Shown piece after piece: positions 6,450 to 33,915 of a DNA stretch of 57,033 nucleotides. The stretch covers positions 1 through 57,033 of the forward strand of contig CACOWI010000008.1 in assembly GCA_902630885.1 (NCBI GenBank). Reading direction: 5' to 3'. Each line of letters starts with the position of its first letter. Position 1 is the first letter of the stretch. Origin of the DNA: an uncultured SAR86 cluster bacterium (lineage in GTDB: Bacteria; Pseudomonadota; Gammaproteobacteria; Magnimaribacterales; D2472). Under the pieces are notes generated by a model. It had not been told where the DNA came from and searched no databases. It saw only the letters and a list, made by a program, of their open reading frames with translations. The position numbers were made by a program, and so were the translations under genes.

Positions 6450-7812
6450 CAAATTCAACTCCCTGAGCTAGTGGGAGCTCTTCACCATAATTGATTGTGG
6501 CAGTAACTCTTCTCATATAATTTTTCCAGGCATCTGATCCAGATTCTCTTCCACCACCAGTATCTTTCTCTCCTCCGAAAGCACCACCAATTTCAGCTCC
6601 ACTTGTACCTATGTTAACGTTAGCTATTCCACAGTCACTACCCGATTCACTGAGAAATAGTTCAGACTCTCTTATATCATTTGTAAAAATTGAACTACTC
6701 AGTCCTTGTTTAACATCATTTTGCATATGAATTGCGTCTTTAATATCTTCATAATCTTTTACATAAAGAATTGGTGCAAAGGTCTCTTGCATCATTTCAT
6801 CCTCGATCTTCTCAACCATCACTAATGCAGGTTTGACATAATATTCATGTGGATCCTCAATTTCTAATCTTTCACCTCCTATAACTGCAACACCTTTATC
6901 TCTTAGAGATTTCAATATTTCTTGCATCGAGTCATAGCTTTCTTTTGATATAAGAGGTCCAATCTGCGATTTTTCTTTTGCTGGACATCCAATTATCAAA
7001 TCGTCAAAACATTTTTCCAAACGTTGAACACAATCTTTATAAATGTCTTTATGAACAAATAGTCTTCTCAAAGAAGTGCACCTTTGACCGGTCGTACCAC
7101 ATGCTGAGAATGCAATTCCTTTAATTGTTAAATCTAGATCTGCTGATGGACAAACAATTGCTGCATTATTGCCGCCTAATTCTAGAAGAATTTTTCCAAG
7201 TCTGGCAGAAACAATTGGTGCAATTTCTTTACCCATTTGAGTACTTCCTGTGGCTGATACTAGATTAATTCTATTATCTTCACAAATAGCAACCGCCTCT
7301 TTTTTTCCTCCCTCTAATATTTGGACTAAGTCAGCATGATCTCCGCTTACTGAATCCCATGCTTTTTTTATGCCCATCGCACATCCGTTTGAATGGGGGC
7401 TTGGTTTCCAAATAATGCTATTTCCACATACTGCTGCTAAACAAAAATTCCAAGCAAAAACAGCCATAGGAAAATTAAAAGCAGTGATACATCCAACAAC
7501 TCCAATTGGATGCCATAATTCTTGAAGTCTGTGATTTGGCCTTTCACTTGGCATTGTTAGTCCATATAGTTGTCTACTTAAACCAACTGCAAAATCACAC
7601 ATATCAATTGCTTCTTGAACCTCTCCAAGTGATTCTGTTTTAATTTTTCTTGCCTCTTTTGTTATTAGTTCGGCAAGGTTTTCTTTTTCTTTTCTAAGCT
7701 CTTCTCCAAAGAGACGAATATATTCACCTCGTTGAGGAGCTGGTAATTTCATCCATTCTGAAGAAACTGTTTGTGATTTTTTGACTACGTTATTATAGAT
7801 ATCTTTGTTCAT
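6439..7812 (-). CDS. aldehyde dehydrogenase, ALDH7/antiquitin type (probable L-aminoadipate-semialdehyde dehydrogenase)
   Basis: About 457 residues from ATG 7812; a TTG at 7827 would add five. Catalytic features are LLELGGNNAAI with the general-base Glu (near residue 245) and FSACGTTGQRCTSLRR with the nucleophilic Cys (near 283). The GTTGQRCTSLRRLF block and the ending KNYMRRVTATINY are characteristic of ALDH7A1-like enzymes, which oxidise 2-aminoadipate-6-semialdehyde with NAD+. It is somewhat shorter than the usual 500 residues, mainly at the N-terminus. It is first in the pair with the LysDH-like gene. Confidence 0.88.
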   Translation of the reverse strand: MNKDIYNNVVKKSQTVSSEWMKLPAPQRGEYIRLFGEELRKEKENLAELITKEARKIKTESLGEVQEAIDMCDFAVGLSRQLYGLTMPSERPNHRLQELWHPIGVVGCITAFNFPMAVFAWNFCLAAVCGNSIIWKPSPHSNGCAMGIKKAWDSVSGDHADLVQILEGGKKEAVAICEDNRINLVSATGSTQMGKEIAPIVSARLGKILLELGGNNAAIVCPSADLDLTIKGIAFSACGTTGQRCTSLRRLFVHKDIYKDCVQRLEKCFDDLIIGCPAKEKSQIGPLISKESYDSMQEILKSLRDKGVAVIGGERLEIEDPHEYYVKPALVMVEKIEDEMMQETFAPILYVKDYEDIKDAIHMQNDVKQGLSSSIFTNDIRESELFLSESGSDCGIANVNIGTSGAEIGGAFGGEKDTGGGRESGSDAWKNYMRRVTATINYGEELPLAQGVEFDEN

Positions 7813-24847: not shown

Positions 24848-25105
24848 TTATAAATCATTCCAAAATCTTGAATTAAAACCTTTTGCTTTATAGAGTTTTG
24901 TAATTGTCGTTGGGATTTTTCTAAATATCCATAAAAAATAAATTAATATAATTATTCCAATTAGTCCATTGCTCAAAAGAATTTCTCCAAGTGAGTAAAC
25001 ATTACTTCTTACATTTGAAGATAAAACAATTCCAAATAAAGTTAAAATGAACAAAAAAGCAATTATTGCATCAAGCACTTTGGTAACAATTTTCAAAAAT
25101 TTCAT
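24848..25105 (-). CDS. cassette gene 1: small two-helix membrane protein
   Basis: An 85-residue protein with two strong hydrophobic stretches (about residues 13-29 and 45-62) and a basic C-terminal tail (KLYKAKGFNSRFWNDL). No recognised family. It is alone in a unit of about 310 bp bounded by two near-identical 20-bp direct repeats (24803 and 25114), in the same orientation as glmS. Confidence 0.6.
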   Translation of the reverse strand: MKFLKIVTKVLDAIIAFLFILTLFGIVLSSNVRSNVYSLGEILLSNGLIGIIILIYFLWIFRKIPTTITKLYKAKGFNSRFWNDL

Positions 25106-25113
25106 AATTGTTA

Positions 25114-25147
25114 TTCTCTGTTTTGTTCTACTCTACAGTCACTAACT
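25114..25147 (+). repeat. att-like repeat A
   Basis: This site combines the 20-bp element shared with 24803-24822 and the string TACTCTACAGTCACTAAC (from 25129), a relative of the CAGTAAC core seen at repeats B, C, D and in the last codons of glmS (there inverted). It separates cassette genes 1 and 2. Confidence 0.5.
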
Positions 25148-25171
25148 TTAACAAAAAAGTGATTAAATTTT

Positions 25172-25378
25172 TTATTCATTGTTTTTTAAAAGTTGATGTC
25201 TGTAGAAAAGAATGCCGAACCAAATCGAAAAGATAAAAACCTCTAGGGTTATCATCAAATTATAATTTTCAACAAAATTAGGAATAATGCCAATTGTGAA
25301 GATACCGAAGAACCCGGTTAGTGTTCCACCGACAAAAGAATCGTTTTTCTTAAGATAATTCTGTAACATTTCTTTCAT
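25172..25378 (-). CDS. cassette gene 2: small two-helix membrane protein
   Basis: A 68-residue protein with hydrophobic segments at about 16-32 and 42-58 and a charged end (YRHQLLKNNE). No family recognised. The last coding bases, with their flank (25174-25191), are nearly repeated at the end of the next small gene (25436-25452), so the conserved unit end reaches into the coding sequence. Lies between repeats A and B. Confidence 0.6.
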   Translation of the reverse strand: MKEMLQNYLKKNDSFVGGTLTGFFGIFTIGIIPNFVENYNLMITLEVFIFSIWFGILFYRHQLLKNNE

Positions 25379-25387
25379 CTTAAATCA

Positions 25388-25420
25388 TTGTTCGAAACTA
25401 CTCGACAGTAACAGAGTGGA
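25388..25420 (+). repeat. att-like repeat B
   Basis: Contains TTGTTC, then ACTACTCGACAGTAACAGAG and TGGA. It aligns with repeat A (TTGTTC, TACTC, ACAGT, AC in order). Its CAGTAACAG...TGGA part matches the glmS 3' end read in glmS orientation (CAGTAACAGTGGAGTAA), though it is inverted on the chromosome relative to glmS. Confidence 0.55.
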
Positions 25421-25421
25421 A

Positions 25422-25589
25422 TTAACCCGACCCTGTTTCATTGTTTTTAAAATAAAGTTTTCCAAAAAAGGCAAACAAAACGTACAGTCCAAATAACCAC
25501 CATTTATAGTCACCTGTTATTAACAAAATAACTGTTAATATTCCTGCTGCCCAGAATGGCGAGTTAATGATTTGTATTAAATTATTCAT
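25422..25589 (-). CDS. cassette gene 3: 55-residue membrane protein
   Basis: ATG 25589, TAA at 25424-25422, 55 residues. The sequence starts MNNLIQIINSPFWAAGIL and has two hydrophobic segments (about 12-25 and 30-42) followed by GKLYFKNNETGSG. The KNNE end is shared with cassette gene 2. Its start codon touches repeat C and its stop lies just beyond repeat B, so almost the whole unit is this gene. No family recognised. Confidence 0.6.
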   Translation of the reverse strand: MNNLIQIINSPFWAAGILTVILLITGDYKWWLFGLYVLFAFFGKLYFKNNETGSG

Positions 25590-25619
25590 TCAACAGTAAC
25601 GAAGTTGAATTGTATGTAC
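25588..25619 (+). repeat. att-like repeat C
   Basis: ATTCAACAGTAACG (25588-25601) recurs exactly at 26044-26057 in the same orientation. The adjoining GAATTGTATGTAC (25607-25619) recurs exactly but inverted at 26030-26042. A 14-bp outer direct repeat plus a 13-bp inner inverted repeat is what attL and attR of a serine-integrase element would leave. Confidence 0.65.
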
Positions 25620-25631
25620 TAGTTTTATTCT

Positions 25632-25988
25632 TCATTTATATTTAATTCTTCCAATACATTGAAAAGACGGAGGTCTTTTTTGATACTCTGTGAGTTCTGG
25701 TGGTTTTGATAGTTTCCCATATGAACCCAATTCCCATTGTCTTTCTAACCAGTTTACTTTTTCACTTAATATTCCTCTAATAAACTCTGTTTCGTGGTCA
25801 TGATCGATTGGGGGAGACTTTTTGTTTAAGTCTAAGAATTTTTGTTTTTCTTGAGAATAAACAAACTTTACTCCACTTAATGGACATTCAAAATTCTGAT
25901 ATTCCATCAATTCTATATATTGTTCAGGAGTTAATCCGTGACGTATTGTTTTTGTAATGTCGTATCCCTTTACAATGATTTTTTTCAT
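25632..25988 (-). CDS. cassette gene 4: HNH endonuclease, recombination endonuclease VII-like
   Basis: A 118-residue protein. The active-site stretch PPIDHDHETEFIRGILSEKV (near residue 59) matches the endonuclease VII pattern (DHDHETG..RGLLC..CN). Only one Cys (FECPLSG) of the usual four zinc cysteines is seen, so the structural zinc site is degenerate. Phage endonuclease VII resolves branched DNA; stand-alone copies occur in phages and mobile elements. The gene is alone between repeats C and D, whose inner arms form a perfect 13-bp inverted repeat. Confidence 0.72.
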   Translation of the reverse strand: MKKIIVKGYDITKTIRHGLTPEQYIELMEYQNFECPLSGVKFVYSQEKQKFLDLNKKSPPIDHDHETEFIRGILSEKVNWLERQWELGSYGKLSKPPELTEYQKRPPSFQCIGRIKYK

Positions 25989-26028
25989 TTAAAATTTCCA
26001 GAATTACTCACAACGTATTGATTTAACC

Positions 26029-26079
26029 GGTACATACAATTCTATTCAACAGTAACGGACTAAGTTTAATCGGTCTTTC
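26029..26079 (+). other. outer attachment junction of the 6-kb element (repeat D)
   Basis: Three parts are joined here: GTACATACAATTC (26030-26042, the arm paired with repeat C), ATTCAACAGTAACG (26044-26057), and the element arm 26057-26079 that ends ATCGGTCTTTC. The last arm is an inverted copy, 21 of 23 positions, of 32073-32095 at the glmS end. It lies a few bases downstream of the integrase stop codon (26085-26087). Confidence 0.7.
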
Positions 26080-26084
26080 ATTCC

Positions 26085-27740
26085 TCACACCATAGTCCTT
26101 ATATTTCGTACGTTATTATCTAAGTTTACCATTTTCTCATATTTTCCTTTTTCAATAACATATCCTTTCTTCTTCTTGGATTTGTCTTTCCATTTAAGAG
26201 TATCTTCAATTATAGGTAATCTTAATTTAAGAACTAATCTATGTTTCCTTGTCTCTGAATCAAATAATACTCTTATCTTCTTAACGTATTTCTTAATAAC
26301 CTCTATTTTTTGTTCATCTGATAGGTTCTTTAATTCGTGGATATTACTTTCATAGTCAGAAATCCAATCTATCCATAAATTGTCTTCCTCTAGGACTACT
26401 TTTTCATTCTCTAGTTCTATTAGGGTCGTTGATAACTTGTTTAATTCGATTTGTAGTTTATCTATGAACATCTGAATCGATTTCGCTTTCTCTCTCGAGG
26501 ATATTTTCTCGATCTCTTTCTGAACAATACTCTCTTCGAGACGACTAATTGATTCTTTGATTGAATCAATCTTCTTGGATAGTCTTGTTAATTCATTCTC
26601 TTTGGAAATCTTTGATCTATTCTTTTGTTTAAGTAAAGACTTTTTGAATATCTCTCTTTCTTGATGAGATAGTTCTAATATATTGACCAGAGTTTCCCAA
26701 ATTCCCTCAATTGTTCTCTCACAATCCATACTGACATTATTTGGACAATGTTTCCCTCTTATCCAATCTCCATCTTTTGACGAAGACTTCCATTTCTTAT
26801 TATGTTTCGAACACCTATAAGAAAGTCTGAATTGATCGTTCTTTAACTTTCGAGATTCTCCCCATATGACACTATCACAATGACCACATGACATTAATTC
26901 TCTAAGGGGATAGTCATGATTCTTTTGTGTTGGTCCTTTAGGTCTAGAAGATTTCTTTAGTCTTTCTTGGACTTTATCCCATATAACTGGTTCCACAATT
27001 CTTGGACATGGAATCTCTTTTTCATAATAAACATATGAACCGTTGGGATGGGTGTTTCTTAAAATACATTCGACACTTCCATAACTCCAAATAGGTTTTC
27101 CTCTATTTGTTAATACATTTCCATCTAACTTGTGTTTAATTCTCTTAGGAGATAATCCTTGTGAATACCATTTGAAGATTCTCTCAACCCAAGGAGATTG
27201 ATCTTTGTCTAGTACAAGTTTCTTATTCTTATTTGTTTTATATCCGAAAGGTGTTGAACCTCCCATCCAATATCCCTGTCTTGCTTTGACTCTTTTCCCA
27301 TGATTTAACCTCTCTTTTCTCAACATATTCTCGTATTGAGAAATCTCTGAAATGATTCCATATAACAAGTTCTGTTCTAATGAATCCAGATTTGTTTCAT
27401 TGGTATTTGTATAGAGAGTACATTTACTCTTTCTAAGAGTTTCTCTAATAATTGTTGATGTCGTTGTATTCCTAGACAATCTATCGATTGAATAGACATA
27501 GATATTCTTAATCTCTCCATCTGATACTCTTGCCAATAGTTCTTTAATTACAGGTCTATTCTCTAAATCCTCTTTTGATGAACTTGCTGATTTCTCGTTA
27601 TGGTGTTCATAGTCCATTCCTAAGGACTTTGCTTTTTCTTTTCCTAACTTTAATTGAGAGTCAAGAGATGTTCCGTCATTCTCTTGATTAACAGTCGATA
27701 CTCTTGTGTAGATATGTAATATTGGTTTGTCCTTACTCAT
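26085..27740 (-). CDS. large serine recombinase (integrase)
   Basis: A 551-residue complete large serine recombinase. The resolvase domain (residues 6-150) has YTRVSTVNQ with catalytic Ser15 and YSIDRLSRN near residue 100. The recombinase domain starts STPFGYK near 160 and includes WVERIFKWYSQGLSPKRIKH. A zinc ribbon follows (MSCGHCDSVIWG near 287, YRCSKH, KHCPNN), then a coiled coil (about 370-470) that in this family controls integration versus excision. It cuts attP and attB with a two-base stagger to insert the element. An AAAGGAGG and a GGGGAAAG lie before ATG 27740. Confidence 0.93.
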   Translation of the reverse strand: MSKDKPILHIYTRVSTVNQENDGTSLDSQLKLGKEKAKSLGMDYEHHNEKSASSSKEDLENRPVIKELLARVSDGEIKNIYVYSIDRLSRNTTTSTIIRETLRKSKCTLYTNTNETNLDSLEQNLLYGIISEISQYENMLRKERLNHGKRVKARQGYWMGGSTPFGYKTNKNKKLVLDKDQSPWVERIFKWYSQGLSPKRIKHKLDGNVLTNRGKPIWSYGSVECILRNTHPNGSYVYYEKEIPCPRIVEPVIWDKVQERLKKSSRPKGPTQKNHDYPLRELMSCGHCDSVIWGESRKLKNDQFRLSYRCSKHNKKWKSSSKDGDWIRGKHCPNNVSMDCERTIEGIWETLVNILELSHQEREIFKKSLLKQKNRSKISKENELTRLSKKIDSIKESISRLEESIVQKEIEKISSREKAKSIQMFIDKLQIELNKLSTTLIELENEKVVLEEDNLWIDWISDYESNIHELKNLSDEQKIEVIKKYVKKIRVLFDSETRKHRLVLKLRLPIIEDTLKWKDKSKKKKGYVIEKGKYEKMVNLDNNVRNIRTMV

Positions 27741-27778
27741 AACCTTACTTTCCCCTCATAACCTCCTTTAGACAACGA

Positions 27779-27967
27779 CTACTCGTCCACAAACTTTTCT
27801 AGTCCTCTTTTCTCTGATTGAGGTTTTTCTTTGGGTCCATAAAGGTATTCCTCTATGTCTTCTATCTTTCGATCTAGTCCTCTTAACCAATGTTGGAGAA
27901 ATTCTATGTCTTTCATTAATTGATAATTACTGTCGACTCTTACTCCTTTAGGATTTCTCTCACTCAT
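27779..27967 (-). CDS. 62-residue charged protein next to the integrase, unknown (possible directionality factor)
   Basis: The ATG at 27967 has AAGGAGG 8 nt upstream and shares a base with the stop of the 263-residue gene (TAATG), so it is preferred over a longer frame from 28021. The protein (MSERNPKGVRVDSNYQLMKD...) is highly charged, with a central helix (FLQHWLRGLDRKIEDIEEYL) able to form a coiled coil. No family recognised. Small charged proteins beside serine integrases are often recombination directionality factors; here that is only a positional guess. Confidence 0.65.
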   Translation of the reverse strand: MSERNPKGVRVDSNYQLMKDIEFLQHWLRGLDRKIEDIEEYLYGPKEKPQSEKRGLEKFVDE

Positions 27968-28758
27968 TATTCGACCTCCTTGAATAAAGGTTTTCTCCCA
28001 TGATTGATATTCCAATCCCAATAACTATCAAGAATTCTGATTGAATCCTTTAATAATGATTCCTTGTAATTGAACGTATTAATGAAGAATGAGTATTGGG
28101 TCTTATCTCCTTTTTTAACTGAATCCTCATACTCAAAATATGTTTCTCGTGTGGTTTTTGGTTTCATAGACTCTGGGTCTGAAGGATCCATCTTTGTAAG
28201 ATATTTTACTGGTTCACTATTCCAATCTTCAGAAGTTACCCACTCATCTACAACGAATACCTTTCTCTCAATCTTCTGTTGATAAAGAGGTGGAAAGAGT
28301 TCATCTTCATAGTTTTCGAGACATTCTCGAGAATCATCAATGTGTGTTAATAACAGTTCAGTAAAATTCTTTACATCTCCTCTTGAGAAATCTTGTTTTC
28401 GACTATAACCACATTCCAATTCAAGGAATTCATCCTCTTTTGGAACCATTTGATAGTACTGTTTTTTCTCTAGACTATGGATATAGACATGAATCCTTTT
28501 ATCCATTAAATACTTTCTAAGAAATCCTTTAATTCCATTAGTTAGATTCATCCGACTAACTGTTTGGAAAGTGAGGTTGTAATATCCATCTGTCATTAAC
28601 TTCCAGACGTTGTTAGAATCCATCTCTATACCTCTTTCATTCATATAAAAACTGAATAAGGAAACTTCTTCCTCTCCGTTATTTACTATTTGATTTAAAC
28701 ACTCAAGATCAGATTCACTAATCTGTGTTTCATTTACTCTTAATAAGACACTATTCAT
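27967..28758 (-). CDS. 263-residue protein, unknown function
   Basis: Starts at ATG 28758 with a GGAGG ribosome-binding site. Soluble, acidic, rich in aromatic residues, no signal peptide or membrane segment. I see no catalytic motif. Features include YYNLTFQTVSRMNLTNGIKG near residue 59 and DSYWDWNINHGRKPLF at the C-terminus. It is the first gene of the operon that runs into the 62-residue protein and the integrase, and its promoter region contains operator copy 1. Confidence 0.7.
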   Translation of the reverse strand: MNSVLLRVNETQISESDLECLNQIVNNGEEEVSLFSFYMNERGIEMDSNNVWKLMTDGYYNLTFQTVSRMNLTNGIKGFLRKYLMDKRIHVYIHSLEKKQYYQMVPKEDEFLELECGYSRKQDFSRGDVKNFTELLLTHIDDSRECLENYEDELFPPLYQQKIERKVFVVDEWVTSEDWNSEPVKYLTKMDPSDPESMKPKTTRETYFEYEDSVKKGDKTQYSFFINTFNYKESLLKDSIRILDSYWDWNINHGRKPLFKEVE

Positions 28759-28832
28759 TTATTTCCTCCATAGAAATTTGGGTTGTTATTAATTTTTTCA
28801 TACTCCTATTATCTTAGATTTGCCATTTAAAC

Positions 28833-28863
28833 TGGATGACATAACTTGATAGAAGTTCTGTCC
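28833..28863. promoter_or_regulatory. dyad operator-like repeat, copy 1
   Basis: TGGATGACATAACTTGATAG followed by AAGTTCTGTCC. The arms GACATAACTT and AAGTTCTGTC are inverted repeats at 9 of 10 positions around a 5-nt spacer. It lies between the divergent 263-residue gene (start 28758) and the 212-residue gene (start 28889), so a bound repressor could control both. Copy 2 at 31740 matches at 28 of 31 positions; copy 3 at 31035 is more diverged. Confidence 0.65.
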
Positions 28864-28888
28864 TAAATGGTTGTGTTATCCTGTTTGT

Positions 28889-29527
28889 ATGAGTGAGAGG
28901 AAGTCATTAAAACAGTTCTATAGATTGTGGTTTGAGTTTCTTAAATTAGGATTAACAAAGACCAAATTTACTAAGAAAGAGAAAGAGTTTTATCTCGATT
29001 GGGGAGATGTTCTTTCATATAAGAACTTTGATGATTGGTGGAAGTCCAAAGGTCATTTATTCGGAGATATTAAAGTCGAAAAAGGATATTCCTTTAGTGA
29101 AGATTCTATTAATTTAAAGATTCCTTTAACTCAACCTTTATCAACTTCTGTCTCTCAAGTTAAGAATATTATTGAAAGTGAGATCGTTGAGAGATATGGA
29201 CATAAATTGTCTCCAAAAGAGATGACTAATAATATGAAATTACCTCACAAAAAATATCCAATTAAAGGACAACCCAAATATCAGACTTTACAAGATACTT
29301 TAGTCATTTATAGGGATGTATACGTCAAGAAAGGTCATTCAAAAGTCGGACAAGAGTTATTAGATGATTGTCGAAAGTTTTTCAAAGGAAGAAAGGTCAA
29401 TAAACGTGTTCCTGAGTTCTTAAGAGAACAAGAAGATAACTTAAATACGTTAAGAAATCTGAGAAGAACTATCCAAAGAGGGAACACAATAATAAAGAAT
29501 GTGAAGTCAGGAGTATTTCCAGACTAA
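28889..29527 (+). CDS. 212-residue protein, unknown function (element gene)
   Basis: Translation from ATG 28889 (an upstream TTG at 28871 overlaps the operator and has no ribosome-binding site). The N-terminal part SLKQFYRLWFEFLKLGL, then FYLDWGDV and FDDWWKSKGHLFG, is a recurring pattern in small proteins of phages and integrated elements that I cannot tie to a named family. The C-terminus is very basic (NLRRTIQRGNTIIKNVKSG), suggesting nucleic-acid binding. Head of the plus-strand operon in the element. Confidence 0.7.
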   Translation: MSERKSLKQFYRLWFEFLKLGLTKTKFTKKEKEFYLDWGDVLSYKNFDDWWKSKGHLFGDIKVEKGYSFSEDSINLKIPLTQPLSTSVSQVKNIIESEIVERYGHKLSPKEMTNNMKLPHKKYPIKGQPKYQTLQDTLVIYRDVYVKKGHSKVGQELLDDCRKFFKGRKVNKRVPEFLREQEDNLNTLRNLRRTIQRGNTIIKNVKSGVFPD

Positions 29528-29585
29528 TCCCGTTGTCCATTTAATAGATTCATAGGAAGGTTTCCTTATAAGTGAGGAAATTATT

Positions 29586-29978
29586 ATGAAACTATTGAAA
29601 GAACTTAATTTAACACCTGTTAAAAAGACTGTTGGAAGGAATCCGATAGTCCAAAGACGTGAAAGTCTTATCAAAGGAATAGATAAACAATTATCTATTT
29701 GTGAATCGTTAATATCAGATAACGAATTTGCCAGAGATCATCATTCTGGACGAAAGATACCTTCCTGGTTCTGGTTAGATGACTCTGGACAATATTACTT
29801 GTCTATCAATTATGGGAAACAACCATTGGAATTATCCAAAGGAAAGTTCTCTATTATTTGTGATTCTATCGAGAGTGTTCAATCGTCTTTAAATCTTGTC
29901 AGAGAATCTGTCCAAATGGGAGATTTCGATAAACAACTCGAAAAGAGAAGTAAGGTCATAAGGTCTAACTTTAAGTGA
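29586..29978 (+). CDS. DUF6641-like protein
   Basis: A 130-residue protein starting MKLLKELNLTPVKKTVGRNP, followed by VQRRESLIKGIDKQLSICES, then WFWLDDSGQYYLSINYGKQP and LELSKGKFSIIC, and a C-terminal helix. The order (basic N-terminus, VxRRxKLIxxLDEQ helix, WWW...G....V.YG...LEL.KGK) agrees with what I know as DUF6641, seen in plasmids and small integrated elements. Function unknown. GAGG lies 9 nt before the ATG, and the stop overlaps the next gene. Confidence 0.7.
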   Translation: MKLLKELNLTPVKKTVGRNPIVQRRESLIKGIDKQLSICESLISDNEFARDHHSGRKIPSWFWLDDSGQYYLSINYGKQPLELSKGKFSIICDSIESVQSSLNLVRESVQMGDFDKQLEKRSKVIRSNFK

Positions 29979-30226
29979 GTAATTTAGTCAATTTGAATGA
30001 TTATAGGTGGAACGTGGATTGGATTATTTCGGACCTTGTGGATGAGTTCTTTGAGACAGGAACTGATGAGATCACAAAATGGTTAATACAAAATAAAGAG
30101 GATGTTGGTCTAAGTGAAAAAGAGATTAAGGAACTCGACGTTGAGGATTTGAAATTAACTTTTGTTAATACTTCTCTAAAAATGTTGGGTATGTCTATTG
30201 TTCATAAGAACAACTTTAGGTGGTGA
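29975..30226 (+). CDS. 83-residue acidic protein, unknown function
   Basis: The GTG start overlaps the stop of the DUF6641-like gene (GTGA), a sign of coupled translation. The protein is acidic and helical (VDWIISDLVDEFFETGTDEI and LSEKEIKELDVEDLKLTFVN), soluble, with no recognised domain. It ends in a GTGA overlap with the next small gene. Confidence 0.65.
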   Translation: MSNLVNLNDYRWNVDWIISDLVDEFFETGTDEITKWLIQNKEDVGLSEKEIKELDVEDLKLTFVNTSLKMLGMSIVHKNNFRW

Positions 30227-30393
30227 TAGTATTTGAATTTCTATCTTCTGGAGGTGTTTGGACTCAATGTGGTTCCACCTCCGACACCAATCCAACCTAT
30301 CTTTCTTATCGATTGAATCAACTCCATAAGGTTTATAAGACCAGAGTGAGAGTCAGATATAGAAATGGAGGAATAATTGATCTTATTGGTTAG
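30223..30393 (+). CDS. 56-residue basic protein, unknown function
   Basis: A GTG at 30223 within the previous gene's TGA (GTGA overlap) opens 56 codons ending TAG at 30391-30393. The C-terminal half is basic: LNQLHKVYKTRVRVRYRNGG. The continued overlap chain and a composition like the neighbours support a real gene. Unknown role, perhaps nucleic-acid binding. It converges on the 67-residue gene, leaving only 2 nt between stops. Confidence 0.6.
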   Translation: MIVFEFLSSGGVWTQCGSTSDTNPTYLSYRLNQLHKVYKTRVRVRYRNGGIIDLIG

Positions 30394-30395
30394 TC

Positions 30396-30599
30396 TTATT
30401 TCTTCTTAATAAGAACAACCGACAATTCATTCTTCCCATTTCCAAAGAATCTATCCAATTCAGATTTAACGAATCCAATATTAGTCTTATCAATAGGTTC
30501 CAATACCTGAATATCGACCTGACCAAGATTATTAATCGATCTAGTCAATTCAGACTTAGTCTTTGGAAGAACAACTTTTGTATCATATTTTCCTAACAC
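30396..30599 (-). CDS. 67-residue protein, unknown function
   Basis: A GTG at 30599 with AGGAG at the correct distance (8 nt) opens a 67-residue frame. The sequence is basic at the ends (VVLPKTKSELTRSINNLGQV ... LSVVLIKKK). No recognised domain. It is downstream of the RHH protein gene on the same strand. Confidence 0.55.
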   Translation of the reverse strand: MLGKYDTKVVLPKTKSELTRSINNLGQVDIQVLEPIDKTNIGFVKSELDRFFGNGKNELSVVLIKKK

Positions 30600-30672
30600 T
30601 CATAAACTCCTTATTAAATACACATTAAAAATTTCCATTGGATAGATTCATCAGATGGATTATTTAAATCCC

Positions 30673-30873
30673 TTAGACACCGACTCTAGGTCTTCTACCT
30701 GTCATTTCATACAAGGTATTCCAGTTCTTAATCTCTTCCTGTTTCTCAATAACATGAGATCTCATTAATTCGATTAAGGTCTGAGTTCTATTCGTATTTT
30801 TAAACCGGCAAGTCTCATCAAAGGTATCAATTACATCATCTGGACATCTAAAGTTAATTAAAGTCTTACTCAT
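30673..30873 (-). CDS. ribbon-helix-helix (CopG/Arc-like) DNA-binding protein
   Basis: A 66-residue protein starting MSKTLINFRCPDDVIDTFDE, with the RHH strand (TLINFRCP) followed by two helices (VIDTFDETCRF and RTQTLIELMRSHV). GAGGAG lies 7 nt before the ATG. RHH proteins repress their own promoters or control copy number or excision in small mobile elements. Operator copy 3 and the hairpin 30917-30940 lie just upstream. Confidence 0.8.
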   Translation of the reverse strand: MSKTLINFRCPDDVIDTFDETCRFKNTNRTQTLIELMRSHVIEKQEEIKNWNTLYEMTGRRPRVGV

Positions 30874-30916
30874 TACTACTCCTCTCTATTACGTTTCATT
30901 AATTAATATATTAGGA

Positions 30917-30940
30917 ATCAAGACAGGATAAAGTCTTGAT
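30917..30940. repeat. perfect 8-bp stem hairpin upstream of the RHH gene
   Basis: ATCAAGAC (30917-30924), an 8-nt loop AGGATAAA, and GTCTTGAT (30933-30940). It lies in the 309-bp stretch (30874-31182) between the RHH gene and the HUH rep gene. Position suits an RHH operator, or a single-strand or double-strand replication origin for the rep protein. Confidence 0.5.
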
Positions 30941-31034
30941 CGATATACCTTATTTAATGGAGATTTATCTTCGACATTAGGTATGTAAAGTATTTGTATA
31001 TATGAGTTATTTATATGACGAAGACTGTTTGAAA

Positions 31035-31063
31035 TGGGACATAACTTAAAAGAAGTTCTGGAC
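31035..31063. promoter_or_regulatory. dyad operator-like repeat, copy 3 (diverged)
   Basis: TGGGACATAACTTAAAAGAA then GTTCTGGAC. It shares GACATAACTT, AGAAGTTCTG and the spacing with copy 1 (28833). About 165 bp upstream of the RHH gene start. The second arm is less symmetric than in copies 1 and 2. Confidence 0.55.
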
Positions 31064-31182
31064 GACTTTTGAACATGAAAATTTTGTGAGGAATTTTTTG
31101 AAAACACACGACATAGAGAAGTGTTTGAAATATCCAAGACAATATTTTTTGAGAAGGTATATATGAAATCGATCAAAATAAC

Positions 31183-31644
31183 CTACCCCACAGGGTAAGG
31201 GATATAGACATTGGACCAATCAACAGAATCCTTAATATCACTCTTGGATGTTAATTTGGTCATATAGTCTATCCAACCTTTGTCATACATTGGTTGAATA
31301 TCAATCATTGGTCTTCCTAATACTGATTTACTCCATGATTCCTTAACTAATCGGATGAATTCCCTGTTTTTCTCTGGATATGGGTTGTCTATAACACAAT
31401 GAATATGTGTTTGAATGTGATTTGTTCCCTCCCTAATAGGTATAACAGTCAATTTTTGGTTATACCTTCTATAAGAATTCTTTAGATAAGATTGGTTAAG
31501 TCTATTCATGAAATGTTTAAAGTTCTGTGAATGACTTATCTTTGTATTTGAAAAGGTCGTTAGAGTAATGGCGAAAGGATTAGACAGTTCTATATCCTTA
31601 ATCCAATCTCTTATCTCCTGTTGATATTCCAAATCATTAACCAC
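31183..31644 (-). CDS. HUH-type replication initiator (rolling-circle Rep-like), compact
   Basis: A 153-residue protein from GTG 31644 with AGAGGTG 8 nt upstream. Motif 1 FAITLTTF (residues 24-31), motif 2 HIQTHIHCVID with the metal-binding His80-Ile-His82, and motif 3 GWIDYMTKLTSK with candidate nucleophile Tyr127 and Lys130 follow Rep order and spacing. IS200-type transposases have a similar size but different Tyr context. It would nick one strand to start rolling-circle replication of an excised circle. No helicase domain is present. Confidence 0.75.
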   Translation of the reverse strand: MVNDLEYQQEIRDWIKDIELSNPFAITLTTFSNTKISHSQNFKHFMNRLNQSYLKNSYRRYNQKLTVIPIREGTNHIQTHIHCVIDNPYPEKNREFIRLVKESWSKSVLGRPMIDIQPMYDKGWIDYMTKLTSKSDIKDSVDWSNVYIPYPVG

Positions 31645-31739
31645 TTCTATACACCTCTACTTCCTATTTTTTGGGATATTTTTAATAGTTTTTAGTTATC
31701 TTTACCATATATTTATCTTATTAGAATTGAGGTTTAACT

Positions 31740-31770
31740 TGGATGACATTACTTGATAGAAGTATTGTCC
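31740..31770. promoter_or_regulatory. dyad operator-like repeat, copy 2
   Basis: TGGATGACATTACTTGATAG then AAGTATTGTCC. It differs from copy 1 at three positions and keeps the dyad (9 of 10 paired). It overlaps the stop codon of the HTH-like gene (31749) and lies about 100 bp upstream of the rep start. The sequences before it (TTATCTTA..., ...TTTAAC) also resemble the region before copy 1, so a whole promoter segment may be duplicated. Confidence 0.65.
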
Positions 31771-32003
31771 AAATAGATCTCAATATTATTTTCTCGTTCT
31801 GTCTTCTTTAAATATTTCTTATACATCCTTTCAACTAATTGAGGAGATAACTCCTTATCACGAGTAGATCGATAACCTTTAGATATAAGATGAGTCGATA
31901 TATCTTTGTATGTCCATGAATACTCCCTCAACTCCTTAATAACCTCTATTAAGTTCTCTTGATACCTTGATAATCCTCCTAGAAAGGAAAGTTTAATATC
32001 CAC
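31749..32003 (-). CDS. HTH-like small protein, putative regulator
   Basis: An 84-residue protein from GTG 32003. The segment WTYKDISTHLISKGYRSTRD followed by LSPQLVERMYKKYLKK resembles the winged or three-helix HTH found in small proteins of mobile elements and in recombinase C-terminal parts. It could bind the dyad operators or the 11-bp repeats beside it; this is inference. It is the gene nearest the glmS junction. Confidence 0.6.
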   Translation of the reverse strand: MDIKLSFLGGLSRYQENLIEVIKELREYSWTYKDISTHLISKGYRSTRDKELSPQLVERMYKKYLKKTERENNIEIYLDNTSIK

Positions 32004-32037
32004 CGAAATTTCAACGGAAATATTTTTTGGTTTATGG

Positions 32038-32070
32038 GAACTTATAGAGAACTTATGGAGAATTAATAAG
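32038..32070 (+). repeat. three 11-bp tandem repeats at the element end
   Basis: GAACTTATAGA, GAACTTATGGA and GAATTAATAAG lie head to tail (32038-32048, 32049-32059, 32060-32070) between the HTH-like gene and the attachment arm. Copies 1 and 2 differ at one position, the third is diverged. Iteron-like arrays at integrated-element ends can bind an excision factor or a regulator. Confidence 0.5.
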
Positions 32071-32072
32071 GG

Positions 32073-32106
32073 GAAAGACCGACTAAACTTACTCCACTGT
32101 TACTGA
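32073..32106 (-). other. inner attachment junction overlapping the glmS stop codon
   Basis: The arm 32073-32095 starts GAAAGACCGACTAAACTTAC on the plus strand and repeats 26057-26079 inverted. Next to it GTTACTG (32099-32105) lies within the last glmS codons (SVTVE). The glmS C-terminus is intact. In direct orientation the two junctions share only TTAGTC, so the exact crossover dinucleotide cannot be fixed from this sequence. Confidence 0.7.
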
Positions 32107-33915
32107 TTTAGCCAAATTCCTTGGCTGGTCAATATCGGTTCCTCTTAAAAGAGCAACCTCATAAGAGAGAATTTGAAGAGGTATCGTATAAATAATTGGT
32201 GTTAAAAGAAAGTCGCATTTTGGCATGTTAATAAGTCTGCCGGATTTTAAGTCCATTGATATTGATGGATCAGAAAATACATACAAAGTTCCGCCCCTAG
32301 CTTTTACTTCCTCAAGATTGGAGACTAGTTTTTCAGCTATCTCACTTTCTGGTGCTAGAGCAATTACTGGCATCTCCTCATCTATCAAGGCGAGCGGACC
32401 GTGTTTTAATTCACCAGCAGGATATGCTTCAGCATGGATATAAGAAATTTCTTTAAGTTTAAGTGCTCCCTCTTTTGCAATTGGATAGAAAATACCTCTT
32501 CCTAAAAATAGTGCATTATCTTTATTTGCTATTTCAGGAGCGATTTCTAAAATTGTATCTTTTAATTTTAAAGTTTCTTCTACTGTTTCTGATAAAGATC
32601 TAAGGGCCGTTATTACTCTAGTTCTTAAGTTTGGATTTCTTTCTCTACTTTTTGCTAAAGATAATGCTAATAACATCAAGGCTGCAAGCTGAGTAGTGAA
32701 AGCTTTTGTTGAAGCAACTCCAATTTCAGGACCAGCATTTGTAAATATTGAATAATCAGATTCTCTTGCAAGAGAACTTGTTGGAACATTGCATATACAT
32801 AGCGTGGATAAGTAATCTTTTTCTTTTGCATATCTTAGTGCTGCAAGAGTGTCAGCAGTTTCTCCAGATTGTGAAATTGTGACCAAAAGAGAATCATCAT
32901 CTACATGAGGATTTCTGTATCTATACTCGGATGCATAATCTATTTGAGTTGGAAGCTCTGAAATTGCTGAGAACCAGTTAGCTGCAACTCGGCCAGCATG
33001 TAAACTTGTTCCACAAGCTACGATTTGTATTCTTTTAACTTTTTCAAACATTTCAGACGAGCCAAGACCAAATATATTATCTAAAACATCATCTCCACCA
33101 ACTCGCCCGTCAATAGTTTTAAGGATTGCCTCAGGCTGCTCGTATATTTCTTTTTCCATAAAATGACGATATTCGCCTTTCGAGGTTGATTGACTTGAAA
33201 TATCTATTTTAGAAATTTCTCTATCAACTTGCTTCTTAGATTTATCAAAAATGGTATAGCTCTCAGATGATAATTCTGCAACATCACCATCTTCTAAAAA
33301 AACAAACTCGTTGGTTAGTTGACCAATAGCCAGTGGATCAGAGGCAGCCAAGAATTCATCCATGCCTATTCCAATTAATAATGGTGATTTACTTCTCGCA
33401 ATAATAATATTTTTATCGTCTTGTTTGTCTATGGCTGCTATTGCATAAGCGCCCTCGAGCTTCTCTTTTGTTTGATACATAGCATCGAGCATGTCTTTTC
33501 CTTTGCTGAGAAAATATTCGAGAAGATGAGCAATTAATTCAGAGTCTGTTTGAGATGAAAAAGCATATCCTTCTTTTTTTAAAAACTTTTTAAGGTCTAG
33601 GTAATTTTCAATTATGCCGTTATGAACAATATAAACCCTTTCATTTGATTTATGTGGATGCGCATTTTCTTCTGAAGGCTCTCCATGGGTAGCCCATCTA
33701 GTATGTGCAATTCCAAGCTTGCTTTTAGGCTTTTCTGAAATCATTTTTTCTTCAAGTAATTTTACTTTGCCTAATGTTCTTAAATGAGTGATTTGGTCAG
33801 TCTGATGAAGTGCAATTCCTGCAGAATCGTAACCGCGGTATTCCATCTTATGAAGACCTTGAACAAGCAATTTTCCAACGTTGCGATTAGAAGCGGCAGC
33901 TATAATTCCACACAT
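32089..33915 (-). CDS. glmS: glutamine-fructose-6-phosphate aminotransferase (isomerizing)
   Basis: A 608-residue full-length GlmS. After the initiator Met comes the amidotransferase nucleophile Cys2 (MCGIIAAASN), then a type II glutamine amidotransferase domain (to about 220) and two SIS domains (SQSGETADTLAAL and SYIHAEAYPAGELKHGP are typical). It makes glucosamine-6-phosphate for peptidoglycan and lipid A. The C-terminus LAKSVTVE is canonical. Five nt separate it from glmU, so it ends the atp-glmU-glmS transcript. Its last codons double as the attachment site. Confidence 0.97.
   Translation of the reverse strand: MCGIIAAASNRNVGKLLVQGLHKMEYRGYDSAGIALHQTDQITHLRTLGKVKLLEEKMISEKPKSKLGIAHTRWATHGEPSEENAHPHKSNERVYIVHNGIIENYLDLKKFLKKEGYAFSSQTDSELIAHLLEYFLSKGKDMLDAMYQTKEKLEGAYAIAAIDKQDDKNIIIARSKSPLLIGIGMDEFLAASDPLAIGQLTNEFVFLEDGDVAELSSESYTIFDKSKKQVDREISKIDISSQSTSKGEYRHFMEKEIYEQPEAILKTIDGRVGGDDVLDNIFGLGSSEMFEKVKRIQIVACGTSLHAGRVAANWFSAISELPTQIDYASEYRYRNPHVDDDSLLVTISQSGETADTLAALRYAKEKDYLSTLCICNVPTSSLARESDYSIFTNAGPEIGVASTKAFTTQLAALMLLALSLAKSRERNPNLRTRVITALRSLSETVEETLKLKDTILEIAPEIANKDNALFLGRGIFYPIAKEGALKLKEISYIHAEAYPAGELKHGPLALIDEEMPVIALAPESEIAEKLVSNLEEVKARGGTLYVFSDPSISMDLKSGRLINMPKCDFLLTPIIYTIPLQILSYEVALLRGTDIDQPRNLAKSVTVE

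Follow-up and report, generated by a model that had tools for sequence, protein, structure and literature searches.

An endonuclease VII-like gene unit as a putative member of a gene-cassette array at the 3′ end of glmS in SAR86

A 118-residue endonuclease VII-like protein is encoded on the minus strand (25632–25988) of the 57,033-nucleotide stretch of SAR86 DNA analysed here (the window). The repeats enclosing its gene raise the question of what kind of unit this is, and how a unit without a recombinase could move. The first-pass annotation had described a perfect 14-bp direct repeat outside the gene and a perfect 13-bp inverted repeat inside it, and both were confirmed. The window contains exactly two copies of ATTCAACAGTAACG, at 25588–25601 and 26044–26057, and GAATTGTATGTAC at 25607–25619 is matched by its reverse complement at 26030–26042. 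When the 1101-bp region was simulated with a first-order Markov model, 25 of 2000 sequences had a direct repeat of at least 14 bp with copies more than 100 bp apart; a 13-bp inverted repeat linking the 40 bp at one end of a 442-bp piece to the 40 bp at the other arose in 1 of 20,000. The protein has a weak endonuclease VII match in Pfam at 7.4e-5 (23.0 bits, just below the cut-off of 23.6) and matches the PHROG endonuclease VII at 8e-7. Its PDB matches, residues 16–33 to TAL repeats and one weak match (0.15), were set aside as spurious.

Read on the minus strand the direct repeat is C-GTT-ACT-GTT-GAA-T, the codons of the C-terminal Val-Thr-Val-Glu (VTVE) of GlmS and the first base of a stop codon. 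The glmS gene itself (32089–33915, minus strand) lies 6 kb from the endonuclease unit; its ORF ends AKSVTVE and its last 15 nt (32089–32103, GTA ACA GTG GAG TAA) are the native target end. The core motif of the glmS end can be written TCN-GTN-ACN-GTN-GAR-TAR. From glmS to about 25.1 kb there is a row of four tandem units, all on the minus strand, each of which begins with a glmS end. A 6-kb element (26057–32088) sits between the native end and the first displaced copy, GTTACTGTTGAATAG (26042–26056, located by pattern match), which forms the upstream border of the endonuclease unit (25601–26041, with a period of 456 bp from core to core). The downstream border of that unit is the displaced end GTTACTGTTGAATGA (25586–25600). 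It is followed by a unit with a period of 188 bp (25413–25585), whose 55-aa ORF (25422–25589) starts inside the core and which has an 87% identical relative in locus L037, and then by the synonymous copy GTTACTGTCGAGTAG (25398–25412, pattern match). The next unit has a period of 270 bp (25143–25397), contains a 68-aa ORF (25172–25378) and is 89% identical to cassette 1 of locus L014. GTGACTGTAGAGTAG (25128–25142) is the last copy recognised; the distal border of the 85-aa ORF beyond it (24848–25105) is undefined. The pattern GTNACNGTNGARTAR has five matches in the whole genome, four in the array (native end included) and a fifth at window position 6624; its reversed control has two. The copy at 25586 ends in TGA and thus falls outside this count. 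The unit had been called minimal, which holds for its single gene and its length of about 456 bp, but it does not stand alone; it is a member of a cassette array.

The arm on the 5′ side of the endonuclease gene (26030–26042, minus strand) overlaps the core by one base and has an arm score of 13 with its centre on AC; the arm on the 3′ side (25607–25619, minus strand) was located by exact repeat search. The 6-kb element shares this topology, as had been proposed: its inverted arms (26057–26079 and 32073–32095) are 91% complementary, with an arm score of 16 and a centre between the A and C of the core. The arms of this element (16 and 23 nt) recur unchanged in a recombinase-free unit of 1329 bp in another genome (L020 cassette 1), and three further units, in L019, L025 and L048, have similar ones. 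The last gene of the element (26085–27740, minus strand) encodes a 551-aa protein with Pfam Resolvase (6e-24) and Recombinase (1e-11) domains, matching a PHROG integrase (3e-78) and, in the PDB, YokA and TP901-1 integrase; both domains in one long protein meet the criterion for a large serine recombinase. A 153-aa replication-initiator-like protein (31183–31644, minus strand; Pfam REP_ORF2-G2P, 1.6e-6) suggests a plasmid- or phage-like past of the element. Its first gene (31749–32003, minus strand) encodes a small 84-aa HTH-like protein without a Pfam match, 27–32% identical to small proteins of L166 and L053.

Extra glmS ends are widespread in the order. Our sample comprised 83 loci (window included) from 154 order genomes with a glmS match; G015, whose contig ends in glmS, was omitted. 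Counting was restricted to the 81 loci with at least 500 bp past glmS, which excluded L018 and L085. Extra copies were found behind glmS in 70 of the 81 regions, across all 17 genera sampled, with 176 copies forward and one reverse over 793 kb, and the variation among them falls at codon wobble positions. Eleven regions are without an extra copy, two of which are short (529 and 503 bp). The control loci from other Gammaproteobacteria carry the native end only, in 37 of 37 (40 regions from 181 class genomes with a match, less two 10-base placeholders and one redundant piece). The repeats could in principle reflect chance, a promoter-like motif or an assembly artefact: about ten chance matches to the motif occur per window at up to three mismatches, and in some units a copy lies near or over the start codon. 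The strand bias, the absence of extra copies from the controls and the confinement of variation to wobble positions all oppose this, and arrays are present at five of the six loci from single-contig genomes (L032, L069, L074, L077 and L078; none at L056), which speaks against misassembly. We attach practically no weight to this explanation.

From the arrays 179 units (63 + 116) were excised. They have a median length of 625 bp, with quartiles at 442 and 1244. An ORF of at least 60 aa is present in 166 units and is the only one in 114; the largest ORF is co-directional with glmS in 154 and opposite in 12, and 13 units have no ORF of this length. The 258 cassette proteins fall into 176 families, 147 of them singletons. 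A Pfam and PADLOC survey was made of 142 proteins chosen among the 176 family representatives. HNH is the commonest Pfam family, with five members, and the further content includes DNA methylases, restriction genes of type I and other kinds and a scatter of other genes, as judged from the best 25 of the 91 matched families; PADLOC gave mainly restriction-modification models (best 25 of 323). Nuclease and restriction genes are a visible part of the array content. We note that different genes are preceded by a conserved 5′ leader, about 200 bp long and containing a GC-rich hairpin (22 matches in 21 cassettes, with the query, L025 cassette 1, counted); Rfam gave no match in the five sources scanned. 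A 3′ module of about 100 bp, starting ATGGAAGAnAAATA, is likewise common to cassettes with different genes (L007_c3, L033_c0, L041_c1 and L051_c1) and also occurs in units of L095, L100 and L107, including records of other groups.

Inverted arms were sought in 177 of these cassettes, two short ones having been dropped. Of the 177, 89 scored at least 9, a score reached by 9.4% of 3468 mismatched pairs; the centre lies between the A and C of the ACN codon in 85 of the 89 cassettes. Mismatched pairs that reached this score are mostly centred on the same point (232) because different cassettes share arm families. The remaining 88 cassettes have no arms at this threshold.

Comparison of genomes bears on whether the units move. 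Cassettes of different genomes were called shared when at least 80% of their length aligned with an identity of 75% or more. There are 67 shared pairs, drawn from 49 of the 179 cassettes and hence not independent. The left neighbour is identical in only eight of the 67 (in four of these both stand at glmS), and the right neighbour in four of the 16 for which both are known. L019 and L026 have the same two cassettes, adjacent in one locus and separated in the other by a single 442-bp cassette; the breakpoints lie exactly in the repeated core. Judged by such comparisons the behaviour of the units is that of mobile cassettes; neither a circular form nor a recombination event has been observed. 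The description of the endonuclease unit as a complete one-gene unit with att-like ends, which lacks a recombinase and would need to borrow one, fits these data. The exact unit was not found in the other 106 genomes of its family, where a single weak protein match (in G088) was found, and its own presence/absence breakpoints are therefore not visible.

The wobble bases of the core allow the exchange to be placed. Where cassettes have the same 5′ arm and different upstream neighbours, the first wobble is concordant in 22 of 85 (permuted mean 24.6) and the last two in 82 and 78 of 85 (permuted 44.3 and 42.2). Where the 3′ end is the same and the downstream neighbour differs, the first wobble is concordant in 74 of 99 (permuted 28.9), with 45 and 52 of 99 for the last two (permuted 51.3 and 49.3). 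The partner therefore switches within the core. Agreement of the two middle wobbles with the cassette on the right is limited to 43 and 46 of 85, and a clean 2-bp exchange at AC predicts less mixing than this; later mutation of glmS codons, mismatch repair or a wider exchange zone could be the cause. Mixed middle wobbles, suiting an overlap wider than 2 bp, would be compatible with host XerC/XerD tyrosine recombinases moving the cassettes, as with the dif modules of Acinetobacter. PF00589 is found in 197 of 203 order genomes, mostly twice in each, which is the number expected for XerC plus XerD, and serine recombinases are rare. The genome's own dif-like site, however, is on another contig (G000:C3:103388–103411): a 24-bp sequence without mismatch to what we take to be the consensus, and the only one in the genome at up to three mismatches. 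The cassette arms are diverse and do not resemble this site, and the A|C arm centre does not match the mixing zone, seen on one side only. We regard movement by XerC/XerD as very doubtful.

The proposal that large serine recombinases move the cassettes has to be set against the distribution of these enzymes. PF00239 was matched in six of 203 order genomes, five above the cut-off. Among the order serine recombinases whose place was examined, that of the window alone is at glmS (G107, G124 and G150 are outside this count). For those of G027 and G088 no glmS-end copy was seen within the 16 and 12 kb read, and the RGIEPRT-type C-terminal ends at both sites are presumably tRNA-derived. At 1e-6, tblastn with the window recombinase gave no match in the other 82 order loci. 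A search of the class gave 13 of 369 genomes at 1e-15, the window's included, of which G367 and G205 were read besides its own. G367 belongs to another family. Behind its glmS are a small HTH-like protein, nuclease-like ORFs, a 183-aa resolvase-like ORF, an insertion element and broken recombinase pieces related to the window enzyme (51% identity over 67 aa and 31% over 116 aa); the last piece stops about 30 bp ahead of a displaced copy encoding Ser-Ile-Thr-Val-Glu-stop. In G205 the recombinase fragments are on a contig other than that of its glmS, with no core copy in the stretches read. Viral contigs contained no relative of the recombinase protein, of three cassette-end patterns or of a 138-aa cassette protein, and phage and plasmid records gave only recombinases below 60% identity, with the best places among the matches listed below 30%. 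The scarcity of recombinases in the order leads us to infer that mobilisation is in trans, by passing elements.

For the endonuclease unit the first-pass annotation had suggested looking for the 13-bp arm beside integrase genes, and this search was unsuccessful. The arm-plus-core pattern has no match in viral contigs, and the seven cassettes with related arms (among 179 examined) are all in genomes in which PF00239 was not matched. For the arm type of the endonuclease unit itself no recombinase was identified.

The small HTH-like protein recurs in larger units: L020 cassette 6, L053 cassette 1, L069, L031, L037, L166:1700–2062, L110 and the window (31749–32003). In one case it matches the recombinase DNA-binding domain PF07508 (4e-8); against viral contigs it gave three weak matches, of which the one read lies inside an ordinary large serine recombinase. 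It is possibly a directionality factor or a regulator. Its recurrence in several larger units, together with the larger recombinase-bearing elements at the site (the window and G367), would also be expected if the arrays were tandem relics of ordinary serine-recombinase islands, decayed to single genes and not themselves mobile. Yet the same small cassette with its ends is found at 91–99% identity in many pairs with different neighbours, and the ORFs of the units are single and intact, with arms placed at the unit ends. Such decay is in our judgement unlikely.

Supported by exchange inside the core, A|C-centred arms, strand-biased copies, shuffled neighbours, cassettes outside the group (below), the arms that the 6-kb element has in common with a recombinase-free cassette and the broken related recombinase of G367, our interpretation is that the endonuclease unit is probably a gene cassette in an accretion array at the glmS 3′ end, moved in trans by serine recombinases. 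Recombination and catalysis are inferred and no assay was made. That the glmS end is repeated at every unit border and marks the gain and loss of units is apparent from the comparisons. In the inferred step, a circular cassette with two inverted arms flanking the same core would recombine with the glmS end at or near the AC dinucleotide, such that the cassette would provide the new last codons of glmS and the old end would be displaced downstream. The large serine recombinase would come in trans from elements like the 6-kb neighbour, the cassettes carrying none. Repeated insertion would lead to a row of small co-oriented genes, many for nucleases and restriction-modification, beside an essential gene. 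Against this interpretation we count the mixed middle wobbles, the 88 cassettes without arms at the threshold, the A|C centre of matching mismatched pairs, the rarity of the enzymes, the lack of a known enzyme for most arm types, the want of an observed circular form or recombination event and the eleven regions without an extra copy.

Several known systems resemble the arrays in part. Tn7-like elements occupy the same neighbourhood behind glmS (attTn7). Insertion of Tn7 takes place beyond the stop codon and duplicates a short target sequence, whereas in the SAR86 array the coding end of glmS is itself repeated; no Tns-like match is present among the Pfam matches of ten window proteins. The main text of a paper on Tn7-like cargo does not mention glmS (PMC8649781). 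Staphylococcal and enterococcal cassette chromosome elements (SCC and ECC), which have CcrAB large serine recombinases, insert in the 3′ end of a conserved housekeeping gene and have border direct repeats and inverted repeats with dyad symmetry (PMC6222049). The glmS cassettes share 3′-end insertion and both kinds of repeat, and so meet this criterion, but the target is glmS in SAR86 and rlmH in SCC. Nor is the ccr criterion met: the window recombinase scores 80.8 bits against an NCBIfam cut-off of 900 for CcrB, 60.3 against 700 for CcrA and 45.2 against 900 for CcrC. The glmS units are typically recombinase-free, with one gene in a few hundred bp, whereas SCC/ECC are islands of tens of kb; ECC::cat is given as 32 kb (PMC6222049). 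The dif (pdif) modules are also small, with inverted recombination sites at their borders and no recombinase of their own; these sites are dif-like and 28 bp long with an 11-6-11 organisation (PMC6449649). The borders of the glmS array are instead glmS codons with diverse arms, and the only dif-like match in the genome lies away from the array. The glmS array thus fails the defining SCC tests (no Ccr, another gene) and the dif-module test.

The likeness to integrons is one of form. Tandem, short, co-oriented single-gene cassettes of diverse content with a recombinase in trans are features of integrons and CALINs (PMC9668308). With no resident recombinase, the glmS array could accordingly be an integron without integrase, its arms being unusual attC sites served by IntI in trans. 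In the glmS array, however, the entry site is the end of a coding gene, the border consists of glmS codons and not of attC as described in PMC9668308, and the enzyme encoded in the window is a serine recombinase. What is repeated as the core is the glmS coding end with codon-wobble variation, the dyad sits on the core, and about two PF00589 proteins per genome leave little room for IntI (neither attC nor IntI-specific models were applied). We consider this alternative very unlikely. By analogy, the best reading is of trans-mobilised cassettes that would be SCC-like in chemistry and integron-like in form. We are evenly divided on the broader proposal that the arrays are an additional kind of gene-cassette platform, distinct from integrons and dif modules, in which transient large serine recombinases would insert single-gene cassettes with diverse arms, rewriting wobble bases of an essential gene, and the cassettes would circulate between ocean phyla. 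No description of cassette arrays at glmS was found among the matches listed for open PubMed Central text.

SAR86 are abundant ocean bacteria with small genomes. A cassette array at glmS would account for the point of entry of part of their variable gene pool and for the exchange of restriction, nuclease and membrane genes, possibly across phyla as well. On the broader proposal entry would be at the conserved glmS coding end, and every bacterium that has this end could be a recipient without a dedicated locus. A direct prediction is AC-centred recombination at the GlmS VTVE codons, and compact natural cassette/attB pairs suggest themselves for gene insertion.

Cassettes directly behind glmS were found outside the order, in records labelled Halieaceae (L095 and L098), Proteobacteria (L107), Gemmatimonadetes (L106) and Nitrospina (L110). 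The 186-bp Gemmatimonadetes-labelled cassette is 80% identical over 179 aligned bases to a cassette of L076 from the SAR86 order. A Marinimicrobia-labelled contig has cassette-like sequence and the end motif, with no recognised glmS end in the stretch read. As these are mostly metagenome or single-cell records, a wrong label is possible for any single one. That the order is SAR86 is inferred from the cassette-end motif, which was found in 21 named records, 12 of them labelled SAR86, of which ten are not independent of the order genomes used. Within the order, different genera share a unit of two genes (249 and 232 aa) at 99% identity (L031, L038, L039, L046 and L067); it is usually the last recognised unit of its array, and in L047 it is part of a larger unit.
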